NCBI GenBank assembly: GCA_944371995.1
Contig: CALVYD010000011.1
Coordinates: 1-51,083, forward strand
DNA from: an uncultured Bacilli bacterium
GTDB taxonomy: Bacteria; Bacillota_I; Bacilli_A; RF39; UBA660
Direction: 5' to 3'
Length of the DNA stretch: 51,083 nt
Shown here piece by piece: positions 4,244 through 49,766 of this stretch (position 1 is the stretch's first letter; the number at the start of each line of letters is the position of its first letter). A program made the translations under genes and the position numbers. The notes under the pieces are model-generated. The model ran no database searches. It was not told the origin of the DNA and saw only the letters and a program-made list of their open reading frames with translations.

Positions 4244-4960
4244 ATGGCTACGCCACATATAGAAAGTAGTTTAGAAGATATAGCAGAAGTTGTACTTATG
4301 CCGGGAGATCCATTACGTGCTAAGTATATTGCTGAGGAGTTTTTAACAGATTATAAATTAGTTAATACTGTTAGAAATATGTTGGGATATACTGGATATT
4401 ATAAAGGTAAGAGAGTTACTGTTTTTGCATCTGGTATGGGAGTTCCTAGTATTGGAATTTATTCTTATGAATTATACAAATTTTATCATGTAGAAAAAAT
4501 TATTCGTATTGGTACGTCTGGCTCTTTTCATAAAGATGTCAAACTATTAGATGTTGTTTTATCTACAGGAGCATATTGTAAAAGTTATTTTGATCAGCTA
4601 CTTGACAATCATGATATTAATTATGTTGAAGCAAGTCATACTTTAAATGATAAAATCAAAAAAGTTGCAGAGGATGCACATATTCCTTTAAAAGTTGGTA
4701 AAACTATTACTAGTGATGTTTTTGATTTGTATGCTGATAATGAAGAAGTTTTTCGAACTAATTTTCCAGGAGATGATTATTTGTCTGTTGAAATGGAAGC
4801 ATTTGGTTTGTTTTATATTGCAAAAAAACTTGGAAGGGAAGCTAGTTGTTTGATGACTGTTGTTGACTCTTTTTATGATAAAAGAAGTCTTTCTAGTGAG
4901 GAAAGAGAACGTTCTTTAAATCAGATGATAGAGTTAGCACTAGATACTGCAGTACTTTAA
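4244..4960 (+). CDS. deoD: Purine-nucleoside phosphorylase, DeoD type
   Basis: Hexameric phosphorylase that splits purine (deoxy)ribonucleosides with phosphate to the base and (deoxy)ribose-1-phosphate, for purine salvage in the cytoplasm. 238 residues, the family's usual size. Visible family features: N-terminal MATPHIESS (the His contributed across the subunit interface), VVLMPGDPLRAKYI (phosphate-binding Arg), IRIGTSG (phosphate loop), VEMEA (ribose-binding Glu), and TVVD near the C-terminus holding the catalytic Asp that polarises the base. The ATG at 4244 is chosen because an extended -10 and an RBS directly precede it and because the family protein begins here. It lies 23 bases before ymfF and is probably co-transcribed with it, although the functions are unrelated. 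Confidence 0.95.
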   Translation: MATPHIESSLEDIAEVVLMPGDPLRAKYIAEEFLTDYKLVNTVRNMLGYTGYYKGKRVTVFASGMGVPSIGIYSYELYKFYHVEKIIRIGTSGSFHKDVKLLDVVLSTGAYCKSYFDQLLDNHDINYVEASHTLNDKIKKVAEDAHIPLKVGKTITSDVFDLYADNEEVFRTNFPGDDYLSVEMEAFGLFYIAKKLGREASCLMTVVDSFYDKRSLSSEERERSLNQMIELALDTAVL

Positions 4961-41881: not shown

Positions 41882-42430
41882 TTAAATATTTTCTTTAACA
41901 TACTCTTTGTTTTGACCAGTTATTTGTAAAAAAAGTTCATCTCCTAGTAAGTCTTTTAGATAATCATCCATAATTTCTTCTTCATAGTTTTCTAAAGTAA
42001 TGATTGCTTCACTTTTATGTAGTTTTGAATAACTAATATAATAGGTATGTTTTTCACATAATTCTAAGAAAGTATTATTTTTTACGATATCTTCTTCTAA
42101 ATACCAAGTTGGTTCTTCACTATAATAATCAGTAAATGGCTTAATATAGGCTAGCACCAGTCCCTGACGATTTTTTTCTTTTAGTGAATAGGTTATTTCT
42201 TTAGGATATCTAGAATGATATTCATCAATATAAATTGTTTTATTATTTATGGTTTCTTTTTTTAACAAAGTTGGTACTCCAAATATTAATGCTTCATTAT
42301 CTGGTGTATCATAGAATGGATCATAGTCTACACCATTTAATAGGCGAGTTCTTTTGGCACTTTTTAAATATTCTGGAGTTGCAGTTATAACTCCAAAGTA
42401 ATAATCATTAATATCAAGTGTTTTTTTCAT
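41882..42430 (-). CDS. Hypothetical protein co-transcribed with pyrH
   Basis: 182 residues, soluble, acidic and Tyr-rich (DYYFGVITATPEYLK at the start). No family is recognised. It begins 18 bases after the pyrH stop with AGAGG 7 bases upstream, and both genes read leftward, so it is most likely in the pyrH operon. In Bacilli pyrH is normally followed by frr (ribosome recycling factor); the protein here shows no resemblance to Frr. Confidence 0.75.
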   Translation of the reverse strand: MKKTLDINDYYFGVITATPEYLKSAKRTRLLNGVDYDPFYDTPDNEALIFGVPTLLKKETINNKTIYIDEYHSRYPKEITYSLKEKNRQGLVLAYIKPFTDYYSEEPTWYLEEDIVKNNTFLELCEKHTYYISYSKLHKSEAIITLENYEEEIMDDYLKDLLGDELFLQITGQNKEYVKENI

Positions 42431-42448
42431 ATTATACCTCTTAACTAT

Positions 42449-43147
42449 TTATGATATGATGGAACCAATGTTTTCTCCAAGTAAAAGTTGTTTTAAGTTT
42501 CCTTTTGTATGGACGTCAAATACTAATATAGGAATTTCTTCTTCCATACATAGACTGATTGCAGTAGAATCCATAACTTTTAGTTTTTTATTTAAAACAT
42601 CTAAATAGGTAATGTGTGGAATAAACTCGGCATCTTCAAATTTTTTAGGATCTTTATTGTAGATACCATTGACATTAGTAGCTTTAATTAAGGCATCAGC
42701 TTTAATTTCTGCTGCTCTAAGAGCGGCTGCGGTATCGGTTGAGAAGAATGGACTACCAGTACCACATCCAAAAATAGTAATTCTTCCTTTTTCTAAATGG
42801 CGGATGGCACGGTCTTTAATATAAAACTCAGCAACTTGTCTCATTTCGATTCCTGTTTGAACACGTACTTCTTGTCCTATTTGCTTAAAAGCATCTCCTA
42901 AGGCTAGGGCGTTCATAGTAGTTGCTAGCATTCCAATGTAATCGCTAGTAGCTCGATCCATATAAGTGTTTAGTTTTCCACGCCAGAAGTTTCCTCCACC
43001 AACTACAATAGCAATTTCTATACCTAGTTCTGCACACTCTTTAATTTCTCTAGCAAATTGAAGTACTTCATCAAAATCAATTCCAGTTTTTTTAGAGCCA
43101 GCTAAAGCTTCTCCACTAAATTTTAGTAATACACGCTTATATTTCAA
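42449..43147 (-). CDS. pyrH: UMP kinase
   Basis: About 232 residues. Phosphorylates UMP to UDP with ATP in pyrimidine nucleotide synthesis; hexameric and unrelated to eukaryotic UMP/CMP kinases. Motifs: KYKRVLLKFSGEAL at the start (ATP-binding Lys), VVGGGNFWRG, DRATSDYIGMLATTMNALAL (UMP binding), GTGSPFFSTDTAA (phosphate contacts) and KVMDSTAISLC. The start is unusual: ATG 43156 follows AAGGAG with no spacing, so TTG 43147 (9 bases) or TTG 43150 (6 bases) must be used; 43147 gives the usual MKYKRVLLK start. It is not next to tsf or frr here. Confidence 0.93.
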   Translation of the reverse strand: MKYKRVLLKFSGEALAGSKKTGIDFDEVLQFAREIKECAELGIEIAIVVGGGNFWRGKLNTYMDRATSDYIGMLATTMNALALGDAFKQIGQEVRVQTGIEMRQVAEFYIKDRAIRHLEKGRITIFGCGTGSPFFSTDTAAALRAAEIKADALIKATNVNGIYNKDPKKFEDAEFIPHITYLDVLNKKLKVMDSTAISLCMEEEIPILVFDVHTKGNLKQLLLGENIGSIIS

Positions 43148-43203
43148 CAAAATCATCTCCTTATTTATTAGTGTATCATAAGATAGTAAAAAAATATAAA
43201 GAA

Positions 43204-43232
43204 TTGCAAAAATGTTGTTAATATGTTATAAT
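43204..43232 (+). promoter_or_regulatory. Strong promoter before gene remnants
   Basis: TTGCAA (43204-43209), 17 bases, extended -10 TGTTATAAT (TATAAT 43227-43232). It now drives the small frame and pseudogene below, and may serve the gene pair at 43661-46529. Confidence 0.65.
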
Positions 43233-43258
43233 AAGTGGCACTAAAAGGGATAGTCTTC

Positions 43259-43396
43259 GTGTTTTATAAAAAATTAACGACTACAACATATGAGAAAGAA
43301 ATGTTAGCTATATTAGATGATAATCATAAAATATCTTTGGAAATGTTGAATGCAATCGAAGAATTAAAGAGTGTAGATTTGCAAGAGATGAAGTAG
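43259..43396 (+). CDS. Small frame of 45 codons, possibly a gene remnant
   Basis: Starts GTG with AAAAGGGAT about 8 bases upstream and codes for a helical, charged peptide (YEKEMLAILDDNHKISLEML then NAIEELKSVDLQEMK). It sits behind a strong promoter and directly before a frameshifted remnant, so it may be the first piece of one broken gene or an intact small protein. No family recognised. Confidence 0.4.
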   Translation: MFYKKLTTTTYEKEMLAILDDNHKISLEMLNAIEELKSVDLQEMK

Positions 43397-43403
43397 ATTT
43401 TTT

Positions 43404-43647
43404 ATGCCTATTTTATCAATGATTTCAGATAGTGTTTTTACTGAAGAACTTGTTCATTTACTTCTTTCTAGACAAAACACCAATTATAAAGCACGATTAT
43501 TACGATTAAAATTAGAGTTACAAAAATATTCGAGAGATTAAAGAAATTTTAGAAGAAGGTACCCTAGGTTTTACAAAAGCTTTATTTACTAATAGAAAGA
43601 TAATAGATCAAGAATTAGAACGTATTTTTAAAGTAAGAAGAATATGA
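43404..43647 (+). pseudogene. Frameshifted remnant of an unknown gene
   Basis: ATG 43404 opens a frame (MPILSMISDSVFTEELVHLL ... LELQKYSRD) that stops at about 43541. The adjoining frame continues the same protein without a gap (REIKEILEEGTLGFTKALFT, then NRKIIDQELERIFKVRRI) to TGA 43645-43647. One base change in the run near 43532-43540 would restore a helical protein of about 80 residues. There is no recognised family. It ends 13 bases before the next gene and may once have been part of that operon. Confidence 0.6.
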
Positions 43648-43660
43648 TGAGGTGATAATT

Positions 43661-44680
43661 ATGGAATTTAAAATTATAGATTTGGACTTGGCAACAAAAG
43701 AGGATGTTTTAAAAGCTCTAAACGAAAATAAAAAAACAGCTTTATTAATGGAGAAAGAAATTCAGAAGTTAAAAAGTATCGCTGCTTCTGTTTCTAAGAA
43801 GGAAAGTGTTTTTCAACCAGTAGAGAACTGTTACGACGATACTATAGACACTACAGTAGAGGAAGATGTGCAGGAGGAAAAAGATGATTTAGAAGGGGAG
43901 ATTACTTATTATCTTGAAAGATTTTCTAAAGCAAATTTACAAGAGTTGATAGAAAATAGAGAAGATATTTTACCCTCTTTAGAAAATTATAATTATCAAA
44001 ATATTATGTTGAGATTACGTTTAGAGACATTAAAGGCCATGAAAGAGATTAGTCATATGATACAAGAAGTATCTAGTGATTCTTTAGAAGAGATACAGTA
44101 TTATGGCGAAGAATTAGAATATGAAAAGAAAAAGTTAGAAATTTTAAATATGCCAGTAAAAGAAGTAAGCCAAGAGAAAAAACATAAAAAGAATAGATTG
44201 GTTTTTGCAACTACACAAGGTGGAAATATTAGGGTATTAGAAGACATTGATAAAAGAATTCCTAGAGAATATTATCCTAAATTTCAAGAGTTATTTTCTT
44301 CTATTGTCCAGGGAACATTTAAAAATGTTAGAAGATTTGTTGCTAGTAATAATGAAACTGCAGGTTTTTATGAAGTAAAAGATCATAAGGTAAGAGTAGT
44401 TTTTGATAGATTGGGACCAAATACTTATGCTGTTATTACAGCTTTTATGAAGAAGAGCGATAAAGATAAGGGATACATTGACTTTTTAAAAAGAGTACTT
44501 AGTGATTATAAAGCAAATAATCAAAAAGTATTTAAGGAAAGTTGTGATAGTGTCGAGTTTATGACTTTACAAAAGCATTATGAATTAGAACTATTTAATA
44601 AATTGGGACAAGATAGTAGAAAAGGTATAGAAAGGGTGAAGGTAAATGATGCGTCAAGAATTGCTTCAAGCAGTAATTAA
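43661..44680 (+). CDS. Unknown protein: coiled-coil N-terminus plus HigB/RelE-toxin-like C-terminal domain
   Basis: 339 residues. Residues 1-60 are helical with a Glu/Lys-rich coiled coil; 60-180 are acidic and helical. From about residue 185 (NRLVFATTQGGNIRVLEDID) to 300 the pattern follows the HigB/Gp49 branch of the RelE toxin fold: PKFQELFSSIVQGTFKNVRRF, then GFYEVKDHKVRVVFDRLGPN and TYAVITAFMKKSDKDKGYIDF, where HigB toxins have L-x-ELR...YRVFF...ivLLHaFvKK...A..R. ATG 43661 follows GAGGTGAT. It overlaps the next gene by 35 bases. The toxin-fold assignment is by eye and should be treated as a hypothesis; RNase activity is not implied. Confidence 0.6.
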   Translation: MEFKIIDLDLATKEDVLKALNENKKTALLMEKEIQKLKSIAASVSKKESVFQPVENCYDDTIDTTVEEDVQEEKDDLEGEITYYLERFSKANLQELIENREDILPSLENYNYQNIMLRLRLETLKAMKEISHMIQEVSSDSLEEIQYYGEELEYEKKKLEILNMPVKEVSQEKKHKKNRLVFATTQGGNIRVLEDIDKRIPREYYPKFQELFSSIVQGTFKNVRRFVASNNETAGFYEVKDHKVRVVFDRLGPNTYAVITAFMKKSDKDKGYIDFLKRVLSDYKANNQKVFKESCDSVEFMTLQKHYELELFNKLGQDSRKGIERVKVNDASRIASSSN

Positions 44681-46529
44681 AGAAGAAGAAAAATTAAAAC
44701 AAGACATGTCATTTCAAAATATTGAATTACAATATTTAGAGAATTTTTTAAAAAATAATAAAGCACATAAACTAACTGATTTAAAAGATATCGATGTAAT
44801 TCATTTAATAATTGCTTATTGTGGAAGTAATAATCCAGTCTTTACTATTCAAGAATTACAGAATATTTTTTTAGCTCTTGCTCCAATGGTTGAAAGAAAG
44901 TCATCAGAGAATTTTGCTAAGTTTTTTGAAAATCTTCATAAAATTTATTTAGCTAACAATTTTGAAACAATTAAGTTAGTTTTAGAGGAGAAAAATAATG
45001 TTATAAAAAGTATTGGTCTAGCGTCATTACTTGTAAAAGCTTCTGTTACTAAGACAAAAGAGAATATGCGATTGTTAGATAATAAAGAGATGAATATTCT
45101 TTCTTATTTTATGTTGTTAAACAAAGATTTTGCTACCATAGAAGAAGCAGTATCTATGGCTGTTGCTATTAAAGAGGTACAAGAAGTTGTAAAAAATGCA
45201 ACATTTCTGTCGTTTTCTGCTACTGAAATTAAAGGATTCGAGGCAGGGACAAAAGAGCAAAAGGATGCCTTAAATCAAATGTATGATATCAAACCGATTT
45301 TAGATAGAATAGATGTTATTAGAAAACGTGTTACTAAGTTAAAATCTAATGAAAGTAAAAGAAGAAGGGATGCTTCTAAGGGTGTTAGTGAATATGAAAA
45401 TCTACGTTCTTTATTACAACAAGAACCAGAACTTCCTATTTTAAATCATCAAGAGATAGTATCTCACATTCCTAATGAGAAAATTAAATTAGAAGTATTA
45501 AAATATATCTATACATCTAATTTACCTTATTATAAGAAATTAGAAGAGACTTATCATGAGTTAACAGAGAATTCAGCTACGAAATATCAGGCTTTATTAA
45601 GTGATGCTGGTATTTCTATTGAGATGTGTGATATGGGACGTATTATGCAAAATTCTATTTCTGATGTGAAAGATATGTTACAGATAATAACATCGTTTGA
45701 TGTTAAAGATAAAGTAGAAATTGTTAATATTCTTCAGTCTAGTTCAAAAGCTTATTTAGATAGTATAGTTTCTTTCTGTAAGGAAGGATACTTTGATTTG
45801 GAGTTTATTACTAGTCATCCTATGATTTTAGAGAATCCAAGTTTTTATGATGTGATTTCCCTAAACCAAAAGTCTATGAAGGAAAAAGGATTAAATCCAT
45901 TATTATTAGCCAGAGATCCAGAGGTATGGTTTCAAGATTCTAACGTGTTAAGAGACAATTTAAATATTTTAGAACGTTATCAATTCTTAGGTTCTATGTC
46001 TAGAGCCTCTAAGTATTCTTTTTTAGGAAGTGAAGAATTAGAACATACTATAGATATGATTTTAGAATTAGGATATGAAGAGTTGTTAGAACAAAATACT
46101 GATTTATTAAATTATGACAGTAAAAAGTGGATGCGTATTTATATTTTAAAAGAATTAAATATGGTACCTAGTGATATCGATACTTTAACTACAGTATTGC
46201 AGCAAGAACAATTTTTTGTACCAGAGGAGAAAATGAAAGATTATATTTCTAACGAACCTTGTAAAATAGAGAGTATGGCAAATGATGAAGTTGCAACAGA
46301 AGAGGAAGTAAGAAGAAAAGTGGATACCTTCCCTCAAACAAAAAGGACTTATGTTGTTGGAGGAGTAATATTATCTAAGAATAGAGTGGAGAAAAATATA
46401 GAAGAAGTAGGTGCCTTAGAGTTATCTTTAGCTAATAAAGTGTATTTATCTTTGGCAAGACACACTATATTGTCTGAAAGTGAACATGATGCAATGCAAA
46501 AGATGATGCAAGGTTCTGTAAAAAAATAA
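44646..46529 (+). CDS. Large helical protein of unknown function, partner of the HigB-like protein
   Basis: 627 residues, soluble, almost entirely predicted helical with many Leu/Glu/Lys heptad-like stretches and no membrane segment. No catalytic motif or family is recognised. It begins inside the preceding gene (35-base overlap; AAAGGG 9 bases before ATG 44646, with a second ATG next to it), so the two must be made together. The C-terminal 100 residues (TFPQTKRTYVVGGVILSKNR, VEKNIEEVGALELSLANKVY) look like a separate small domain. A neutralising or scaffold role for the upstream protein is possible but only inference. Confidence 0.65.
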   Translation: MMRQELLQAVIKEEEKLKQDMSFQNIELQYLENFLKNNKAHKLTDLKDIDVIHLIIAYCGSNNPVFTIQELQNIFLALAPMVERKSSENFAKFFENLHKIYLANNFETIKLVLEEKNNVIKSIGLASLLVKASVTKTKENMRLLDNKEMNILSYFMLLNKDFATIEEAVSMAVAIKEVQEVVKNATFLSFSATEIKGFEAGTKEQKDALNQMYDIKPILDRIDVIRKRVTKLKSNESKRRRDASKGVSEYENLRSLLQQEPELPILNHQEIVSHIPNEKIKLEVLKYIYTSNLPYYKKLEETYHELTENSATKYQALLSDAGISIEMCDMGRIMQNSISDVKDMLQIITSFDVKDKVEIVNILQSSSKAYLDSIVSFCKEGYFDLEFITSHPMILENPSFYDVISLNQKSMKEKGLNPLLLARDPEVWFQDSNVLRDNLNILERYQFLGSMSRASKYSFLGSEELEHTIDMILELGYEELLEQNTDLLNYDSKKWMRIYILKELNMVPSDIDTLTTVLQQEQFFVPEEKMKDYISNEPCKIESMANDEVATEEEVRRKVDTFPQTKRTYVVGGVILSKNRVEKNIEEVGALELSLANKVYLSLARHTILSESEHDAMQKMMQGSVKK

Positions 46530-46661
46530 GATTTAGAAGTTAGTTAAATAGTTTAAAATAATATTGGTATTAGTAAAAATTAAAAAGAAAATTCTATTTT
46601 GAACAACTAAAATCCGCTTAGTATTATGAGTAGATGATATTTCAGAGTCCATGGATAATTA

Positions 46662-46721: not shown

Positions 46722-48716
46722 ATGGATATTTGGAAACAAACACATGAAGTTAATCAAGAGTTGTATGACGATATGGATCAATTTTATGAGCAATTACAAG
46801 GTCAAAAACATATAGAATATCGTCCTGGTCAAGATACTATGAGTTATGATATTTTGGATATTTTAAGTAATAAAGAAGTACTAGTAATTGAGGCTGGTGT
46901 TGGAATAGTAAAATCCTGGGCTTATTTAATTCCGTTAATATATGCTAGTAAGCATCATAAAAACTTTCAAGGATTTTTAATATCTACATCCTCTATTGCT
47001 CTTGAAGAACAATTAAAAAATGAAGTAAGACTTGTATCTAAAATGTTAGATATTGATATTGATGTGGTTGTTGCTAAGGGAAAAAATAATTATATATGTC
47101 AGAAGCGTTTAGAAAAGTTTTTAAAGTATAATGATAAAAAGCACCAATATCAGTATTTACAAGAGATGTTTGAAGATGGTGCTGTAGATAAAAGAGATTA
47201 TAATGTTCCTCAGCAAATATGGAAAAAAATTAATGTTGATAAAGTAAATTGTACTAATTGCTTGTATAAGAATAATTGTCAGTATAAAATAACTAGAAAA
47301 CAATGGAAGCAAAGTAGCAATGTGATATGTAATCATGATTTATTGGTTGAAATATTAAAGCGAGATAGTGAAGATAAATTAGTTCAGGATCCATCTATAT
47401 TGATTGTAGATGAAGCACATGCTTTGGTTGAAAAGATTGTAAACTCATATAAGAAAAGTGTTTCTAAGACAGACCTTGAGTCTTTAATTTATAGTATATA
47501 TAGTCGTATTGATGAGACTGTTGAAGATGATTTTCCTATTATTGATTTAATGAATACTGTTTTTCGTATGATTAGTACTAAGGCTAAAAAAGAGTATAAA
47601 GCACATGCTAAAGAAGAAGTAGATGTATTAGATTCTGAAAGTAGCGGGTTTACTTGTACACCTATGATTAAACAAAGCATAATAGATTTAGTAAATCAAT
47701 TAGATGAATTAGAGCAATATGCTAGAAAATATCCAAGTTCTGATAAAAAGTTGTTAGAACAATTAAGTTCATTAAAAGAGATAAGATTAGTTTTTTGTGA
47801 TTTAATATCTTCTTCTTCAAAAAGTATTTACTGGGTTAATTTTTTACCTAATACGAGAGAACATATTGAATTAAATTATGTTCCAAAAAATATTTCTGAA
47901 CTTTCTAGACGGTTATTAAGTAATCCAAATTATGGAAAGGTTTTTACTTCTGCAACTTTAACAACAGAAAAAAATAATTATAGTTATTTTATGAAAGAAT
48001 TAGGATTGGATCAGATGATTGGAACACCAGTTTTTCAAGAGTTTAGTCAACCTTCTCCATATAATTATGATGAAAATGCACTTTTATATTGTGCGATGGA
48101 TGGTGTTAGTCCTAAAAGTAAAGATCATAGCTTATATTTGGACTCTTTAGCTTCTAAAGTAGATGAACTAATTAAAATTACTAATGGTAGAAGTCTAGTG
48201 TTATTTACTTCTAAACAAGACATGAGAGAGGTTTATCATAGATTACAAAAAAGACAATATGATTTTAAGATTTTAGTACAAGAAGATGGTACAAATGCAG
48301 AAAAACTTAAATCCGAATTTAAACGTGATACTGCTTCAACTTTGCTAGCAACTGGAACATTCTGGGAAGGTATTGATATTAAAGGAGAAGCACTAGAACA
48401 AGTTATTATTACTAAATTACCATTTCCTGTTGTTGAACCAATTATTGAAGAAAAAGCTTCTCATTATAGAGACGGGTTTAAGGAAGTTTATGTACCTGAA
48501 ATGTTATTAAAATTGAAACAAGGAGTAGGACGATTGATTCGTAGTTCTACAGATAAGGGTATTGTTTCGATACTGGATTCTAGAATGAAAGATTATGGGG
48601 AAGATATTTTGTCTACTTTACCATTTCATAATGTAACTCATTCTATTGATGATGTTAATACGTTTGCTAGAGATGTTTTGCAACGTAAGCCTGTAGAGAA
48701 TGTTTTGAAAAAATAA
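46722..48716 (+). CDS. dinG: DinG/XPD-family iron-sulphur DNA helicase with altered Walker A
   Basis: 664 residues; superfamily 2 helicase of the DinG type without the N-terminal exonuclease domain of some Firmicutes DinG. The iron-sulphur cluster Cys are C126, C177, C180 and C186. The DEAH box is 230-233 (LIVDEAHAL), motif III VFTSATLT, motif V LLATGTFWEGIDI and motif VI KQGVGRLIRS. Walker A, normally EAGTGTGKT, reads EAGVGIVKS (57-65): the Gly before the invariant Lys is Val, and two Thr are changed. The Lys is kept, so ATP binding may remain, but this is unusual. Own promoter; no terminator seen before the rplU promoter. Confidence 0.9.
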   Translation: MDIWKQTHEVNQELYDDMDQFYEQLQGQKHIEYRPGQDTMSYDILDILSNKEVLVIEAGVGIVKSWAYLIPLIYASKHHKNFQGFLISTSSIALEEQLKNEVRLVSKMLDIDIDVVVAKGKNNYICQKRLEKFLKYNDKKHQYQYLQEMFEDGAVDKRDYNVPQQIWKKINVDKVNCTNCLYKNNCQYKITRKQWKQSSNVICNHDLLVEILKRDSEDKLVQDPSILIVDEAHALVEKIVNSYKKSVSKTDLESLIYSIYSRIDETVEDDFPIIDLMNTVFRMISTKAKKEYKAHAKEEVDVLDSESSGFTCTPMIKQSIIDLVNQLDELEQYARKYPSSDKKLLEQLSSLKEIRLVFCDLISSSSKSIYWVNFLPNTREHIELNYVPKNISELSRRLLSNPNYGKVFTSATLTTEKNNYSYFMKELGLDQMIGTPVFQEFSQPSPYNYDENALLYCAMDGVSPKSKDHSLYLDSLASKVDELIKITNGRSLVLFTSKQDMREVYHRLQKRQYDFKILVQEDGTNAEKLKSEFKRDTASTLLATGTFWEGIDIKGEALEQVIITKLPFPVVEPIIEEKASHYRDGFKEVYVPEMLLKLKQGVGRLIRSSTDKGIVSILDSRMKDYGEDILSTLPFHNVTHSIDDVNTFARDVLQRKPVENVLKK

Positions 48717-49475: not shown

Positions 49476-49766
49476 ATGAATTTTTTAAAGTTAGATATCC
49501 AATTATTTGCTCATCATAAAGGGCAAGGATCAACATCTAATGGTCGTGATTCTGCAGGACGTAGACTTGGAGCTAAAGCTGCTGATGGTGAATTTATAAC
49601 GGCAGGTTCTATCATATATCGTCAACGTGGAACTAAAATATTCCCTGGTAATAATGTTCGTCGTGGTAATGATGATAGTTTATTTGCAACAGTTGATGGA
49701 ATTGTTAAATTCGAACGTTTAGGAAGAGATAAAAAACAAGCTTCAGTTTATCCTGTAGGTGAATAA
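49476..49766 (+). CDS. rpmA: 50S ribosomal protein L27 with cleavable N-terminal extension
   Basis: 96 residues. The mature part begins [20 protein letters not shown], the conserved L27 N-terminus that reaches toward the peptidyl transferase centre. Before it is the Firmicutes-type extension [12 protein letters not shown], with the Prp recognition sequence (L-x-IQLFA, cut after FA). The rest ([26 protein letters not shown]) is typical L27. RBS GGAGGAG is 5 bases upstream. The Prp gene next to it makes the pair self-consistent. Confidence 0.98.

Follow-up and report, generated by a model that had tools for sequence, protein, structure and literature searches.

The window analysed here, a stretch of 51,083 nucleotides from an uncultured Bacilli bacterium (1.72-Mb assembly, 71 contigs), carries two overlapping genes on its plus strand, whose products we call A and B. 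The A gene (43661-44680) encodes 339 residues from its ATG, with an in-frame GTG at 43652 as an alternative start, and its product joins a helical arm to a C-terminal domain of predicted HigB/Gp49 type. The B gene (44646-46529) encodes a partner of 627 residues that is predicted to be all helical. An earlier note on this DNA had the second gene begin 35 bases within the first, and the open reading frames bear this out, with the overlap spanning 44646-44680. Both genes are under purifying selection relative to the nearest relative (dN/dS 0.21 for A and 0.27 for B), so the two frames are not chance; within A, constraint is strongest on the toxin domain, with a dN/dS of 0.13.

The pair is flanked by pyrH (42449-43156, minus strand) on one side and by a gene for a DinG-like helicase (46722-48716) on the other, beyond which rplU, prp and rpmA follow in that order. 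We take rpmA (49476-49766) to encode L27 with an N-terminal extension, and the gene directly ahead of it presumably encodes a Prp-like protease. The Walker A motif of the DinG-like helicase reads GVGIVKS, as against GVGSGKS or GVGIGKS in two relatives, a change that may impair the enzyme of the window; the position of the helicase gene relative to A-B pairs varies by genome, being before, between or after them, or the gene is absent. Beside pyrH lies a minus-strand gene of 182 codons (41882-42430) that belongs to no Pfam family and occupies the same place in many genomes of the genus.

Directly upstream of the A gene, on the same strand, lie the remains of a second pair (pair 2), recognised by blastn against locus L070 of a sister species (G011) in which both tandem pairs are intact. 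The N-terminal part of the second A (43251-43575) is interrupted by an 82-bp deletion at about 43386/43387: positions 42441-43386 correspond to L070rc 703-1649 at 87% identity and positions 43387-43575 to L070rc 1732-1923 at 88% DNA identity, and the A-family profile matches the remnant at 43277-43384 and 43383-43547. The last codons of the second B follow at 43570-43647; from 43570 onwards the window corresponds to L070rc from 4242 onwards, and the second B of L070 (B2) ends at 4319. Pair 2 of the window has lost these 82 bp and about 2.3 kb more, leaving part of its A and the last codons of its B. The remnants reported earlier are therefore real, as they derive from a pair that the sister species retains whole, but they are better called deleted than frameshifted. 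The strong promoter said to precede them stands only in part: a promoter-like site (TTGCAA and TATAAT spaced by 17 bases, with TG before the -10) does lie 5′ of the remnant at 43204-43232 on the plus strand, as a consensus match only, but such sites are at chance level in the region as a whole (40, against 34 ± 6 in shuffles).

Predicted structures of A and B

The AlphaFold2 model of A, built on an alignment of 60 relatives (mean pLDDT 86.7), consists of a long helical arm (residues 1-170) followed in order by a strand, two helices, four strands and a long helix. The arm (43661-44173, residues 1-171) is predicted as long helices at residues 13-48, 71-90, 112-136 and 142-163, and its residues 70-170 carry a net charge of -12, in keeping with the earlier description of a toxin domain fused to a helical and acidic N-terminus. 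The C-terminal domain (residues 172-300) is basic, with a net charge of +9 (family mean of the toxin domain, +2.6), and structure matches by VIA and Foldseek place a RelE-fold domain of HigB type at residues 176-296 (44186-44548). In VIA-align, A superimposes on M. tuberculosis HigB1 on the ribosome (7nbu_Y) over 113 aligned residues at 2.8 Å with a Z of 10.7, on S. pneumoniae HigB (6af4) with a Z of 10.2, and on many RelE, YoeB, YafQ and ParE toxins with Z of 7 to 8.4. Toxin-antitoxin structures also rank top when Foldseek is run against the PDB, led by the S. pneumoniae HigB-type module 6af4/6af3 (E 5.4e-5), then RelE and HigB1. A likeness to HigB/Gp49 toxins that had been noticed by eye is thus met by a confident model and by two structural comparisons that agree on a RelE-type, and specifically HigB-type, fold.

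At the level of sequence profiles, Pfam Gp49 (PF05973) scores the window's A at 15.6 bits, below its cut-off of 23.9, and the aligned residues (128-198) lie mostly off the domain. The same profile matches 14 of 27 aligned A proteins (best E 2.1e-5), and its curated cut-off is passed by the A′ proteins described below and by one A of an A-B pair (G012). A search of solved structures by sequence profile returned nothing relevant for A.

Conservation and spacing single out a set of putative catalytic residues, namely E238 (44372-44374), K240 (44378-44380) and R245 (44393-44395), together with F262-x-K264-K265 (44444-44455), which lies at the HigB distance from the conserved arginine. Among the 60 relatives, E238 is kept in 52, a lysine or arginine at position 240 in 58, R245 in all 60, F262 in 47, K264 in 58 and K265 in 56. 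The catalytic R68, R73 and K92 of S. pneumoniae HigB equate to R68, R77 and K95 of HigB1, and E66 and the phenylalanine F93/F90 of HigB1/S. pneumoniae HigB have been named as further residues (PMC9098466). Residues E238, K240, R245, F262 and K264 of A match E66, R68, R73, F90 and K92 of S. pneumoniae HigB with exactly the same spacing, counted as +2 from the glutamate, +5 from there to the arginine, and then +17 and +19 from that arginine. As far as sequence and predicted structure go, we regard it as settled that A is a HigB/Gp49-type RelE-fold toxin domain on a helical arm.

B was modelled with AlphaFold2 from 71 relatives (mean pLDDT 90.2) and is helical throughout. Residues 310-535 (45573-46250) form a solenoid, delineated with VIA, of helical repeats of 30-33 residues. 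When this part was compared by VIA-align, mTERF proteins took all of the first 17 places (Z 9.6 to 6.5, rmsd 4.0 to 7.4 Å), followed by TAL effectors, a ranking to be read with the caveat that for helical repeats a Z under about 13 possibly reflects a mere common arrangement; in Foldseek the best mTERF reached only E 0.19. Searches of Pfam, NCBIfam, PADLOC and PHROGs gave no convincing family match for B, and solved structures searched by sequence gave none. At E-values up to 10, the mTERF profile PF02536 found nothing in the genome to which the window belongs, and it is absent from the 25 families listed for the 71 B proteins. Single weak Pfam matches, e.g. Spore_III_AA (E 0.005), were isolated and were taken as chance. 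We read the likeness of the modelled B to mTERF as a resemblance of fold only. The view of B as a large protein with no recognisable domain holds where known families are concerned, but the model adds to it an acidic helical-repeat solenoid.

The net charge of this solenoid is -16 in the window (residues 310-540) and -9.9 on average over the 71 relatives. Because the solenoid is acidic while the toxin domain of A is basic, both in the window and in the family mean, the charge of B points to a basic protein as its binding target over nucleic acid. Across pairs, the charges of toxin domain and solenoid do not covary (rho 0.05); the argument from charge is therefore one from averages only.

Distribution, variant operons and divergence

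A survey of 60 relatives was extended to 291 genomes of the same family, of which 52 yielded B and 65 yielded A, both being missing from most. Adjacency of the two genes is the rule: in the loci retrieved, A precedes 65 of the 80 B genes in the same orientation, either immediately or separated by a single small gene, and the junctions are mostly overlaps or gaps of fewer than 50 bases. Nine further B genes are preceded by genes of 289-684 codons whose products, aligned together, show similarity to the toxin domain of A (hhalign P 3.4e-7), so that most of the remaining cases are best taken as diverged pairs. Judged by sequence and predicted structure, B is settled as the regular partner of A. 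With this adjacency and the RelE-type fold, neither of the two outcomes that the earlier note named against its own reading occurred. The pairs are spread over many genera of this one family, and in the window's genus and several others they sit between addA/pyrH and rplU, often two in tandem. One genome (G001) holds an array of four B and three A genes (L051:11011-17621), the first B of which (714 residues) has no A and contains an internal duplication near residues 160-260.

Outside the family, 346 genomes of the class and 392 of the phylum gave one weak match to B and none that was convincing; for A too, convincing matches were confined to the family. This sole B-like match is an open reading frame of 335 residues (G523:C2:46011-46472, L209) that aligns with B residues 11-158 at E 2.7e-6. 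An origin from phages or plasmids was considered and set aside: tblastn found neither A nor B in phage and plasmid records, B was absent from viral contigs, and viral fold matches were weak and unspecific. Membership of a known defence family was likewise discarded, with no match in PADLOC.

Related operons differ in what follows the toxin gene. A shorter variant, A′ (258-288 residues), is followed by a protein of 89-93 residues and has no B. The window's own genome contains one such operon on the minus strand (G000:C33:2728-3779, L167), in which a HigB-type protein of 258 residues is followed, with a 4-base overlap, by an HTH-like protein of 92 residues, with no B. What we call type-II operons hold a long A (about 490 residues), an HTH-like protein of 65-78 residues, B, and then a protein C of 90-100 residues. 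By hhalign, the small proteins behind A′ are relatives of those behind long A (P 5e-6); both look HTH-like by eye, while against known HigA and XRE profiles they reach P of 0.009 and 0.24, a link that is not statistically shown. In the A′ and long-A operons the toxin comes first and the small HTH-like protein (65-92 residues) second, which is the higBA order, and with this HTH-like gene behind A, descent from HigBA is the best reading of the module. Neither B nor A is matched by profiles built from the HTH-like proteins, and the idea that B is a fragment of A's antitoxin was dropped. Four copies of A consist of the arm only and still have B directly behind (that at L141 is possibly an interrupted copy), from which B seems tied to the arm. 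Long A proteins also occur at conserved places with neither the HTH-like protein nor B, and the arm may therefore restrain the toxin by itself.

Protein C forms a family of its own, encoded directly after B at L186:3470-3754, L181:3865-4149 and 12 other loci; its helical repeats look mTERF-like by eye, and the two members tested had no Pfam match over the cut-off. A distant paralogue of B, 589 residues long, is encoded on the minus strand elsewhere in the window's genome (G000:C3 14082-15851; L166:5082-6851), with a gene of 289 codons upstream and an overlapping C gene of 95 codons downstream.

No genes of the locus diverge more than A and B, as comparison with genome G005 illustrates (identity 94% for addA, 94% for pyrH, 89% for addB, 62% for A and 57% for B). 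Against the sister species G011, in contrast, A and B of the window have a dS of 0.15 and 0.16, whereas that of the adjacent pyrH is 0.94, and a stretch of 94% identity begins in the B2 tail and ends with the B stop codon. Given this low dS next to pyrH and these sharp ends, the pair looks to have been exchanged between species as a cassette. Over positions 43570-46533, identity to L070 jumps from 87% to 94% at the deletion junction, and a single recombination event may have both deleted pair 2 and exchanged the cassette. In tandem arrays the closest counterpart of each pair usually lies in another species and not beside it, in A and in B alike, and the paralogous pairs are therefore old. Distances among A proteins correlate with those among B proteins (r 0.82), and for most tandem copies A and B agree in their nearest neighbour, consistent with tandem pairs having duplicated and diverged as units.

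Possible roles of the pair

We interpret A-B as a HigBA-derived toxin module in which B would be the dedicated inhibitor or regulator in place of HigA, a reading drawn from the models and from comparison of the operons, and one to which we give about an even chance. The HigB/Gp49-type domain of A would most likely cut mRNA in the ribosomal A site, with the helical arm replacing the bare mono-domain layout. We envision that B grips the helical arm, as seems most likely, while its acidic solenoid covers the basic toxin domain, and that the toxin would be kept off until B is displaced or lost. B would then fill the antitoxin place that is held by the small HTH protein in related operons. The fast divergence, the tandem pairs, the loss by deletion and the cassette-like exchange suggest a use in conflict, and this conflict is probably phage defence. 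Several observations nevertheless sit uneasily with an inhibitor. A correlation of A and B distances is expected of any linked genes, the net charges of toxin domain and solenoid do not covary, and known antitoxins are far smaller than B. Where an operon holds both the HTH-like protein and B, as some do, B need not be the antitoxin, and where long A has neither partner the arm alone may restrain the toxin. A fixed site upstream of rplU throughout the genus is moreover unusual for a defence or addiction module.

The operons that contain A, the HTH-like protein, B and C together speak for a second reading, possible but in our view rather unlikely, in which B would be the sensor of a phage component and would release A in a toxin-plus-sensor defence, the small HTH-like antitoxin being the original inhibitor. 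The analogy is with TAC modules, whose chaperone and antitoxin sense a phage component. These modules extend HigBA by a third protein, and Gp49-type HigB serves in abortive infection (PMC11980606). Fast divergence, deletion, tandem copies and cassette exchange would suit a sensor as well. B, however, has no SecB-like domain and no match in PADLOC, the locus is fixed in the genus beside housekeeping genes and outside any defence island, and A-B is absent from the phage and plasmid records searched.

The mTERF proteins and TAL effectors that head the structural entries for residues 310-535 of B are nucleic-acid-binding solenoids, and on this model and by analogy B could be a targeting factor that binds RNA (rRNA, tRNA or a phage transcript) and brings the RNase of A there; human MTERF4 is said to bring NSUN4 to the large ribosomal subunit in a comparable way. 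The position of A-B just upstream of rplU-prp-rpmA in many genomes would agree with such a role, as would the protein of 95 residues, with similar helical repeats by eye, that type-II operons add after B. We consider it improbable all the same, since the solenoid is acidic in the window and in the family mean, the opposite of what nucleic-acid binding needs, and since its resemblance to mTERF comes with no profile match, a poor Foldseek E-value and Z scores in the range where helical repeats may simply share an arrangement. There is, in our estimate, a slim chance that B acts as an mTERF-like solenoid of bacteria, recognising one particular nucleic acid or a phage-made ligand and delivering or unleashing the HigB-type RNase of A on it; A-B would then be, with the same slim prospects, a guided or sensor-gated toxin whose sensing and toxin parts lie on separate, co-diverging genes.

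That the HigB-like domain is no longer a toxin and that A-B does housekeeping work, e.g. in translation or ribosome maturation, is very unlikely: the fixed site beside rplU across genera, the long A proteins at conserved places without antitoxin and the copies of A without toxin domain could be explained in this way, but the catalytic residues hardly vary, constraint within A is strongest on the toxin domain, and most genomes of the family lack the genes, which have been duplicated and deleted and evolve fast, unlike housekeeping genes.

Relation to known systems

As a rule, a HigB-type toxin is a small protein kept in check by a HigA that is small as well. A shares with the HigB/Gp49 toxins (HigB1, S. 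pneumoniae HigB) the fold, the long C-terminal helix and the spacing of E, K/R, R, F and K, but these are mono-domain proteins of about 115-120 residues, whereas A has an arm of 175 residues ahead of the domain and a tail behind it. As in HigBA type II modules, the toxin gene comes first and an overlapping partner second. The antitoxin of those modules is small, however, while the partner in the window is a large helical-repeat protein, and no small HigA-like frame with an HTH lies between A and B or after B, in line with the earlier remark that the partner is unlike the small antitoxins of HigBA pairs. Since both the mono-domain toxin (about 90-120 residues in HigBA, 339 with the arm in A) and the small HTH antitoxin are missing, we do not file A-B as HigBA, although it is toxin-antitoxin-like of the HigBA type.

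TAC modules likewise have a Gp49-type HigB with a partner beyond HigA, as do the type-II operons with A, the HTH-like protein, B and C. TAC has a SecB-like chaperone, whereas B contains no SecB-like domain and is a solenoid without sequence relatives, and the operon of the window has no third gene. With the mTERF proteins (MTERF1, MTERF3, MTERF4), residues 310-535 of B have a residual likeness of fold, in repeats of 30-33 residues and in the best structural matches; B differs in that it lacks a match to PF02536, is acidic and is bacterial. Our literature search returned no paper that joins mTERF with toxin-antitoxin systems and, for RF39 and HigB, none on this system. The earlier suggestion of an undescribed system agrees with our comparison, in which no described system with the A-B pair was found.

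Taken together, sequence and models argue that A-B is a new variant of the RelE-superfamily toxin modules and that B is a large helical-repeat protein not described before. A HigB-type catalytic domain is here predicted to sit on a large arm and is tied to a helical-repeat protein of some 600 residues, in a module that is family-wide and fast diverging. Should B be the inhibitor, the RelE superfamily would gain an antitoxin of a new kind; should B act as a sensor or guide, it would offer a novel means of targeting an RNase that works on the ribosome. Operons exist in which A is followed by the HTH-like protein only, by both this protein and B, or by B only, and they form a natural series in which the replacement of an antitoxin can be worked out.
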